This document shows positions 10,597 through 62,112 of a DNA stretch of 64,000 nucleotides, piece by piece. The translations under genes were made by a program, and so were the position numbers. The stretch is from the NCBI RefSeq assembly GCF_026162425.1, contig NZ_JAOBQJ010000002.1, positions 62,001 to 126,000 on the forward strand. Direction: 5' to 3'. The stretch comes from Flexivirga meconopsidis (GTDB lineage Bacteria > Actinomycetota > Actinomycetes > Actinomycetales > Dermatophilaceae). Each line of letters opens with the position of its first letter. Positions within the stretch are counted from its first letter, which is position 1. The notes below the pieces were generated by a model. It saw nothing but the letters and a program-made list of their open reading frames with translations. It ran no database searches and was not told where the DNA came from.

Positions 10597-10627
10597 ACGC
10601 TAGAACCTGAGGTCGACCTGAGGTCAA
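10597..10627 (-). promoter_or_regulatory. MerR-type promoter and operator of the hydrolase gene
   Basis: On the minus strand, -35 TTGACC (10622-10627) is followed by a 19-base spacer and the -10 TAGCGT (10597-10602). A 19-base spacer is the hallmark of promoters activated by MerR proteins, which untwist the DNA. The spacer and -35 carry a 20-base near-palindrome made of ACCTCAGGT repeated around CG. The -10 ends 7 bases before the hydrolase ATG, implying a leaderless transcript. The MerR gene starts 17 bases away in the other direction. Confidence 0.7.
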
Positions 10628-10643
10628 GATGCACAATGCACTC

Positions 10644-11021
10644 ATGAAGATCGGGGAAGTTGCGCAGCGTCTCGACGTACCGATCCACGTGCTGCGGCAC
10701 TGGGACGACATGGGCGTCGTCGTCGCCGGTCGCAGCACTTCGGGGCACCGCATCTATACCGAGGAGCATCTCTACCGTCTGCGAATCCTGCAGGCTTGTC
10801 AGGGAATCGGGATGAGCCTTGCCGAGATCCGGAAGGTCCTGCACCGAGGTGCGCCCGGCCGCGCCACCGCCATCACCCACCAACTGCGTCGCGTCCGGCA
10901 ACAGCGGATCGCACTCGAGCGCACCGAACAGTTTTTGACGCACGTCATCGACTGCCGGCATGACCTCCTCACCCGCTGCCCCGCCTGCAGCGCGTATGCC
11001 GAAGACGCAGCGAGCACGTAA
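10644..11021 (+). CDS. MerR family transcriptional regulator
   Basis: 125 aa, with the N-terminal winged helix MKIGEVAQRLDVPIHVLRHWDDMGVV and GHRIYTEEHLYRLRIL, then a dimerisation helix. The C-terminus carries three cysteines in DCRHDLLTRCPACSAY, which suggests metal or redox sensing but is not the SoxR iron-sulphur pattern. ATG 10644 gives the standard family start; ATG 10629 in frame is an alternative. It is divergent from the hydrolase gene across a promoter with a palindrome and a 19-base spacer, so it probably activates that gene when bound to its inducer and may regulate itself from the same site. Confidence 0.88.
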   Translation: MKIGEVAQRLDVPIHVLRHWDDMGVVVAGRSTSGHRIYTEEHLYRLRILQACQGIGMSLAEIRKVLHRGAPGRATAITHQLRRVRQQRIALERTEQFLTHVIDCRHDLLTRCPACSAYAEDAAST

Positions 11022-59951: not shown

Positions 59952-60461
59952 CTACCCGTCGAGCCGCAGGTGCATCACATGCAGCCCGACGTAGCCGTCG
60001 TGCGGATGCCGGAAGGCCTCCGGCACCGTGCCGACGATCGTGAAGCCGAGTGACTTCCACAGCCGCACGGCCGCGGTGTTGCTCTCGACCACGGCGTTGA
60101 ACTGGATTGCGCGGTAACCGTTTTCGCGGTGCCACTGCACGACGTACTCACCCAGCGCCCGGCCGAGCCCACGGCCCCGTCCGGCCTGCGCCACCATGAA
60201 ACTCGCGGTGCCGACGTGGTCGCCCGGACCGGGCCGGTTGGGCCCCATCTTGGCCGTCCCGAGGACCGTGCCGTCGTCGTCGACCGCGACGACGGTCCGG
60301 CCCGGCGGTCGCTCCAGCCACAGGCCACGTGCCAGCTCGGAGTCGAGGTCGGCCGGATAGGTGTAGGTGTCGCCCGCGGCGACGACATCGCGCACGATCG
60401 GCCAGATCTGTGGCCAGTCCGCGTCGGTCGCCTCACGGATTGTCGTGCCTCCCAACGTCAT
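59952..60461 (-). CDS. GNAT family N-acetyltransferase
   Basis: 169 aa with acetyl-CoA loop VAQAGRGRGLGRALGEYV and the C-terminal NTAAVRLWKSLGFTIVGTVP. The substrate is unknown. ATG 60461 overlaps the DinB stop (ATGA), so both are made together. It ends 1 base after the convergent parC stop. Confidence 0.88.
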   Translation of the reverse strand: MTLGGTTIREATDADWPQIWPIVRDVVAAGDTYTYPADLDSELARGLWLERPPGRTVVAVDDDGTVLGTAKMGPNRPGPGDHVGTASFMVAQAGRGRGLGRALGEYVVQWHRENGYRAIQFNAVVESNTAAVRLWKSLGFTIVGTVPEAFRHPHDGYVGLHVMHLRLDG

Positions 60462-61006
60462 TCGCCGGTCGCCCCGTCGACGGACTGCCGGATCAGGTCG
60501 GCGTGGCCGTTGTGCCGCGCATACTCCTCGATCAGGTGCACCACGATCCAGCGCAGCGAGAACTCCTCGTTCTCGCGACGGCTGCGCTGCGCGGACAACG
60601 CGCCGAGGCCTCCGTTCCGCAACGCCGGCTGCAGCACCTCGTCGGCCAACCGCACCGACTCCTCGTAGAGGGCGGTCAACTGCTCCGGTGTGTCGTCGGC
60701 GGCCGAATGCCAATCCCAGTCGACGTCCGCCTCCCAGTCGACCGACGCCCACGGCTCAGGAGCCGGTTGACCGGCGAAACGCTCCACGAGCCAACTGGTT
60801 TCGACGAGCGCGAGATGCTTCACCATCCCGCCGAGCGTCATGTCGCTCGGCGCGAGTGCGGTGTTCAGCTGCTCGGCGGTCAGCCCGCCGGTCTTCGCCC
60901 GGAAGGTGTCGCGGTGATAGTCGAGGTAGGCCCGCAGGGTCTGTGCCTCGTCCGCCTGCAGCGGCGGGTCGACGCGGGCGGACAGGTCGAACGCGGGTGT
61001 CGTCAT
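60458..61006 (-). CDS. DinB-like (DUF664) protein
   Basis: 182 aa. Metal-binding histidines are in MVKHLALVETSWLV and WIVVHLIEEYARHNGHADLIRQ, the typical three-His pattern of DUF664/DinB proteins; several are mycothiol-dependent enzymes. ATG 61006 is preferred over 61015. It is coupled to the GNAT gene by a 4-base overlap. Confidence 0.85.
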   Translation of the reverse strand: MTTPAFDLSARVDPPLQADEAQTLRAYLDYHRDTFRAKTGGLTAEQLNTALAPSDMTLGGMVKHLALVETSWLVERFAGQPAPEPWASVDWEADVDWDWHSAADDTPEQLTALYEESVRLADEVLQPALRNGGLGALSAQRSRRENEEFSLRWIVVHLIEEYARHNGHADLIRQSVDGATGE

Positions 61007-61056
61007 ACCGATCACCGTATGGCGCCGCGACGCACCCGCCCAGCGATTTTCGGCTG

Positions 61057-61629
61057 CTACGCCTTCGCCTTGGCCGCCGCTTTCGCCTGCTTCTTGAAAT
61101 CCCTTACCTTCTGCAGGGATTCGGGGTCGACCACATCCGCAACCGAGCGGTAGGAGCCTTCCTCGGCATACGGGCCGATGGTGCTGCGCCAGCCGTCCGG
61201 CTGCACCCCGAGCCGCTTGCCGAGCAGCGCCGCGAAGATGCGTGCCTTCTGGTCACCGAAGCCGGGCAGGTTCTTCAACCGGCGCAGCAGCTCTGAGGTG
61301 TCGGCCGCGGTGGTCCAGATCTTCGTGGTGTCGCCGTCGTAGTCGTCGCGCACAACCGCGGCGAGCGCGAGAATCCGGCGCGCCATCGACCCGCCGTAGC
61401 GGTGGATCGCAGGCGGTCGCACGCACAGCTCGACGAAGCTCTCCTCGTCGGCACCGGCGATCGCCACCGGGTCGATCGTGCCGAAGCGGTCGACGATCTT
61501 GGCCGGTCCCATGAATGCGCGCTCCATCGGGAACTGCTGGTCCAGCAGCATGCCCACCAGCAACGCGAACGGCTCGTTCGACAGCAACTCGTCGGCTTCG
61601 GGGTCCTGCGCGATCTGCAACGTCACCAT
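61057..61629 (-). CDS. HhH-GPD-type base-excision repair protein
   Basis: 190 aa. FALLVGMLLDQQFPMERAF and the hairpin LKNLPGFGDQKARIFAALLGKRLG are the helix-hairpin-helix DNA-binding unit of the endonuclease III/AlkA superfamily; the Asp that should catalyse base removal is not obvious. It belongs to the actinobacterial small HhH-GPD group. ATG 61629 is preferred over the longer frame. The C-terminus is Lys/Ala-rich. Confidence 0.8.
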   Translation of the reverse strand: MVTLQIAQDPEADELLSNEPFALLVGMLLDQQFPMERAFMGPAKIVDRFGTIDPVAIAGADEESFVELCVRPPAIHRYGGSMARRILALAAVVRDDYDGDTTKIWTTAADTSELLRRLKNLPGFGDQKARIFAALLGKRLGVQPDGWRSTIGPYAEEGSYRSVADVVDPESLQKVRDFKKQAKAAAKAKA

Positions 61630-61679
61630 TCCGGCAGCGTATCGCCGGGGATGTCCGACGGTCCTGCCTCGCGTTCGCC

Positions 61680-62075
61680 TCACGCCACCGAACGCACGGT
61701 CGGCGTGAGCCCCGACTCGTTGATCCCGAAGGACAGCAGCCGCGACGGGTGGATCCGGATGCCGTGCCCGTCGCCGCCGAACGCCGCCTCACCACGGATG
61801 TGCCCGGCGCGTCCACGGATCTCCAGACAGCGCGGCGTCCACGGATCGGTCGCGGCCAGGTCGTCGACCACGAACGCGACGCGGTCGTGGCTCGCGACGT
61901 TCTGGTACTTCTGACTCTGCGCCATGGCGCGCCCGAAGACGTCGATCGTGTCGTCGTCGTTGAGCTGGAAACCGACCGGGTTGTTCTGCAGGGTGCCGGA
62001 CGGCTGCAGTGTCGCCAGTCGCCCTAGGGGATGGCTGCGCAGGTAGTCCCGCTCGGCGGGCGTGAAGATCGTCAT
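61680..62075 (-). CDS. PPOX-class F420-dependent oxidoreductase
   Basis: 131 aa split-barrel protein. FTPAERDYLRSHPLGRLATLQPSG is the F420-binding start of the family (short forms TLQPSGTLQNNPVGF), and the C-terminal IHPSRLLSFGIN closes the barrel. It reduces an unknown substrate with F420H2. ATG 62075 is 7 bases past a MerR/SoxR-type promoter, so the mRNA is predicted to be leaderless. Confidence 0.85.
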   Translation of the reverse strand: MTIFTPAERDYLRSHPLGRLATLQPSGTLQNNPVGFQLNDDDTIDVFGRAMAQSQKYQNVASHDRVAFVVDDLAATDPWTPRCLEIRGRAGHIRGEAAFGGDGHGIRIHPSRLLSFGINESGLTPTVRSVA

Positions 62076-62081
62076 ACGACC

Positions 62082-62112
62082 AGCCTCCGACCTCAAGCGA
62101 GCTTGAGGTCAA
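62082..62112 (-). promoter_or_regulatory. MerR/SoxR-type promoter of the F420 oxidoreductase gene
   Basis: On the minus strand -35 TTGACC (62107-62112) and -10 GAGGCT (62082-62087) have a 19-base spacer. Over them lies a perfect 22-base palindrome: GACCTCAAGC (62089-62098), GA, GCTTGAGGTC (62101-62110). CCTCAAG...CTTGAGG is the core of SoxR boxes in Streptomyces and enterobacteria. The -10 ends 7 bases before ATG 62075. The regulator gene is not in the neighbourhood. Confidence 0.65.

Follow-up and report, generated by a model that had tools for sequence, protein, structure and literature searches.

The gene for a PPOX-class protein of 131 amino acids (62075-61680, minus strand), located in the 64,000-nucleotide stretch of DNA analysed here (the window), very probably stands under a SoxR-dependent promoter. 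It is predicted to be a new member of the already known SoxR regulon, a membership that would recur across part of the PPOX family, and its promoter is probably leaderless. The minus strand upstream of the gene reads CTTGACCTCAAGCTCGCTTGAGGTCGGAGGCTGGTCGTATG, and the elements named in the original prediction are all in place there: a -35 hexamer TTGACC (62112-62107), a spacer of 19 bases (62106-62088), a -10 hexamer GAGGCT (62087-62082) and an inverted repeat between the hexamers. Motif and repeat searches identified the latter as a SoxR box, and its longest perfect form is GACCTCAAGC-TC-GCTTGAGGTC (62110-62089, two 10-base arms around a TC centre). The PPOX gene is thus preceded by an exact box in a long-spacer promoter. 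On the other hand, GAGGCT is a poor -10 (two of six matches to TATAAT, A2 and T6), which counts against the SoxR-promoter reading. Six bases follow GAGGCT before the ATG (62075-62073), so that the A of the start codon is the seventh base after the hexamer, exactly the distance originally given.

MerR-family operator-promoters carry a dyad between the -35 and -10 hexamers, within a spacer of 19 bases. The PPOX site is alike in having its dyad between the hexamers and a long spacer, but differs in that its start codon falls at the expected transcription start, which leaves no room for a ribosome-binding site.

The string CTTGACCTCA, with which both the PPOX site and a site at 10.6 kb had been said to begin, indeed occurs twice in the window, both times on the minus strand (62113-62104 and 10628-10619); in shuffles its mean count was 0.07, and two copies were present in one of 100. 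Searching the window for TTGACCTCAAG-N4-CTTGAGGT with up to three mismatches gave three matches versus none in 100 shuffles, namely the PPOX dyad on each strand and the 10.6-kb site (three mismatches). The exact form occurs at the PPOX site alone in the 4.28-Mb genome.

With no MerR gene next to the PPOX gene, an unlinked SoxR- or MerR-like protein had been expected, and both parts of this expectation agree with the gene content. MerR_1 has 18 matches in the genome, the sole one inside the window being the gene at 10.6 kb. TIGR01950, searched against the whole genome, has one match, a SoxR encoded on contig C4 (191.6 bits; cut-off 116.9). This protein aligns over 131 residues with E. coli SoxR (2zhg) and carries CX2CXCX5C, the motif given for SoxR in the main text of PMC4146615. 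Since the window lies on contig C3 and soxR on contig C4, the regulator is unlinked to the PPOX gene.

The box recurs before relatives of the gene. The window protein belongs to TIGR04023 (PPOX_MSMEG_5819; 140 bits, curated cut-off 85.6) and also matches PF01243. Among 394 genomes of the class, TIGR04023 was found above its cut-off in 110, and the promoter sample comprised 145 loci from 109 genomes. At 60 of the 145 loci the window box was matched at 13 or more of its 19 letters, where about 1.0 was expected from shuffles; 33 loci had two or fewer mismatches to it, and 85 were without the box. A looser box pattern, written after sites partly from the same loci had been viewed, scored at least 16 at the identical 60 loci picked out by the window-derived pattern and never exceeded 15 in shuffles; both score cuts were chosen after the two-humped score distributions had been viewed. 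In 51 of the 60 boxed loci the start codon lies 13-16 bases beyond the box, so that the spacing of the window gene, whose ATG coincides with the expected transcription start, is shared by most of its boxed relatives.

The boxed genes span six families of the class, and on a quick tree (one of the 145 rows was too short and was left out) the boxed label changes eight times, versus a mean of 46.5 changes for shuffled labels. SoxR was present in 45/45 boxed versus 48/64 unboxed genomes (p 1.4e-4, with relatedness left in). Seven boxed PPOX genes, all from one family (f24), are divergent from soxR, and the SoxR cysteine motif is present in each of the seven full MerR genes adjoining boxed PPOX genes; a MerR gene other than SoxR was not seen beside any boxed gene, either in 38 loci or subsequently in all 145 (33 of them with at least 900 upstream bases). 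As for the unboxed loci, a SoxR gene lies ~365 bases from one, a truncated SoxR-looking frame is near another, and a third is beside a different MerR gene. In eleven genomes (G294, G525, G283, G502 and seven others) the boxed TIGR04023 paralogues number two or three.

While the box precedes many orthologues across the class, it is weak or partial in the family to which this genome belongs. Within the genus the PPOX gene is present in only two of five genomes, this one and G003, and the G003 site is weaker (14/19). Six further family matches, those of lowest E-value, gave 14/19 for G136 and G003 and 9-12 for the other four. Therefore the family does not uniformly have the exact box.

Genome-wide, TTGACNTSAASNNNNSTTSANGT with up to two mismatches gave nine matches, or seven places after two both-strand dyads were merged, whereas its reversed control gave none. 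Besides the PPOX gene, the boxes precede genes for an ABC exporter (63 bases from box to start), a nickel superoxide dismutase (46 bases; 156 bits against TIGR02753), an SDR protein (42 bases; this gene is divergent from soxR), a quinone-oxidoreductase-like protein (122 bits to its best match, TIGR02824, below the cut-off of that family), a transketolase N-terminal subunit (15 bases, a leaderless spacing; Transketolase_N, 93 bits) and the hydrolase at 10.6 kb (15 bases). Of the wider regulon of leaderless genes suggested in the original prediction, the further SoxR-like sites do exist, but leaderless spacing is found at only some of the targets. Inspection by eye also revealed a 15-codon frame with leaderless spacing between the box and the quinone-oxidoreductase-like gene (L350, region of contig C6:330779); its stop overlaps the start of that gene (TGATG), which suggests translational coupling of the two.

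The box at the superoxide dismutase gene (sodN) was compared across 50 upstream regions in the family, 20 of which were added by choice, with genus members included. Of these, six reach 16 or 17 of 17, and none of the remaining 44 exceeds 12; shuffles never scored above 13. The six belong to five genus members and G167 (L414, which is contig C3:889079-889549 of this genome, and L421, L427, L428, L429 and L419). In G002 and G004 the outer letter of the box changes jointly in both arms (ACCTCAAG/CTTGAGGT), and in G003 the arms read ACTTCAAG/CTTGAAGT. A single gene thus shows either half-site form, and this links the PPOX box to the genome's other sites.

The same promoter architecture was sought independently in a collection of species genomes, as a box, a hexamer and an ATG 4-9 bases later; given that fixed range, the scan is silent on the leaderless share of SoxR promoters. 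It returned at least 119 stretches and at least 80 loci, at least 57 of the latter Streptomyces by title. Among the matches listed, the ATG lies 6 or 7 bases past the hexamer in 74 of 80 loci. Downstream frames were scanned at 71 of the 80, nine having been set aside: three truncated at the end of the locus and six short frames, whose ATG may not be the true gene start. Among the matches listed, these 71 proteins include Transketolase_N (17), ABC_membrane (15), SnoaL_4 (12), MFS_1 (4) and PNPOx_N (1). The PNPOx_N match is an Actinomadura meyerae protein that scores 154 bits against TIGR04023 and is 48% identical to the window PPOX protein, and hence in that species the same promoter type stands before a homologous PPOX gene.

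The most direct competing explanation for the regulator is that another MerR-family protein, the one at 10.6 kb or a paralogue, controls the PPOX gene, the resemblance of the site to a SoxR box being due to half-sites that family members have in common. The genome does hold the 18 MerR_1 matches, CTTGACCTCA opens both window sites, and the 10.6-kb site is just three mismatches from the SoxR box. That site (10605-10627, minus strand) lies between a MerR-family gene that is not SoxR (10629-11021, plus strand; TIGR01950 41.3 bits, cut-off 116.9) and an alpha/beta hydrolase gene, to whose ATG, 15 bases past the box, it has a leaderless spacing. However, the inner half-site there, CAGGT, differs from that of the PPOX site, and the operator type goes with the adjacent MerR: in G001, the closest relative, an orthologue of that protein (96% identical) has as its operator the perfect palindrome ACCTCAGGTCGACCTGAGGT, which is of a distinct kind. 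Among relatives further away, several have CTTCAGGT- or CTTCATGT-type sites, and others have no clear dyad. The 10.6-kb site is probably the operator of the adjacent MerR, although SoxR may bind it as well, and a common regulon of the two window sites, as first proposed, was rejected on account of the differing inner half-site and the adjoining MerR with its own operator type. As the 10.6-kb operator would pass the score cuts used above, such a cut fails to distinguish SoxR boxes from closely related operators, and some of the 60 boxed loci may answer to other MerR proteins. At the PPOX gene itself control by another MerR protein is improbable, given the inner half-sites, the G001 operator and the SoxR cysteine motif in all seven full MerR genes beside boxed PPOX genes. 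A palindrome arising by chance within a constitutive promoter deserves practically no weight, as judged from the empty shuffles and from the recurrence of the box upstream of TIGR04023 genes across six families of the class.

SoxR control leaves a separate question about the protein, namely whether it is a split barrel that binds FMN, FAD or haem and is unrelated to F420. Its structure model, built from two sequences and of moderate confidence (pLDDT 71), is a split barrel that matches F420-, FAD-, FMN- and haem-binding barrels alike, with an FAD-binding mycobacterial protein ranked above the F420 complexes. Against this, NCBIfam titles TIGR04023 F420-dependent, and an F420 synthesis protein is encoded in this genome (TIGR03550, 485 bits) and in 45/45 boxed versus 42/64 unboxed genomes, a pattern that also tracks phylogeny. 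A role unrelated to F420 is therefore a serious if somewhat unlikely alternative, and F420 use by the window protein is plausible, with a fold that leaves the cofactor undecided.

Downstream of the PPOX gene, after a gap of 56 bases, lies a gene for an HhH-GPD DNA repair protein (61623-61057, minus strand; TIGR03252, 293 bits), followed by a mycothiol-S-transferase family gene (61015-60458, minus strand; PF04978, 135 bits). Both are possibly co-transcribed with the PPOX gene, and the PPOX/HhH-GPD gene order was absent from the short flanks of all the other 147 loci scanned. These three genes and an acetyltransferase-like frame, the latter recognised by eye, are closely spaced on the same strand (59952-62075, minus), where a SoxR-driven operon is possible.

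For the favoured reading, SoxR control of the PPOX gene, the binding, activation, inducer and transcription start are carried over from known SoxR biology. SoxR, whose gene lies on a different contig, would occupy the dyad within the spacer, which at 19 bases is over-long; redox-active compounds would oxidise its [2Fe-2S] cluster, and the oxidised protein would reshape the spacer and so allow RNA polymerase to open the promoter. Transcription would then start at or beside the A of the PPOX ATG, and the product would be a leaderless mRNA for a PPOX-fold reductase.

Such an arrangement resembles the SoxR regulon of Streptomyces coelicolor as described in the main text of PMC4146615, in which SoxR acts in trans, at dyads preceding a small number of dispersed genes, among them those for an exporter, a quinone oxidoreductase and other redox enzymes. 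The other targets predicted in this genome match these known kinds, and the text mentions a boxed transketolase gene in S. avermitilis. In contrast, the six S. coelicolor targets listed in that text include neither a PPOX nor a superoxide dismutase gene, and the words pyridoxamine, F420 and leaderless are absent from it. Among the papers listed by a literature search, none linked SoxR to a PPOX gene, although a genome survey cited by PMC4146615 may list such genes; likewise none listed dealt with leaderless SoxR targets in actinobacteria or, by title, with SoxR control of sodN. A regulator of the family member MSMEG_5819 was not found in print either, the one paper that contains this gene, PMC3283656, naming it as a neighbour gene.

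Tentatively, these results can be read together. In many F420-making actinobacteria SoxR might act directly on leaderless promoters to drive a PPOX reductase that uses F420H2 to disarm the very quinones or dyes that trip SoxR, which would make the deazaflavin an electron source for the SoxR response of actinobacteria. In this genus nickel superoxide dismutase would belong to the regulon as well, so that SoxR would run a true superoxide defence without SoxS. According to the introduction of PMC4146615, SoxR outside enteric bacteria serves a few exporters and tailoring enzymes, and no predicted target is a typical oxidative-stress enzyme; to this generalisation the sodN boxes of the genus would form an exception. 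With the ATG at a nearly constant distance from the box, the boxed genes would be well suited to the study of regulated leaderless translation. Furthermore, the recurring pairing of SoxR with PPOX genes would provide an inducer and a testable role for a class of uncharacterised split-barrel proteins.
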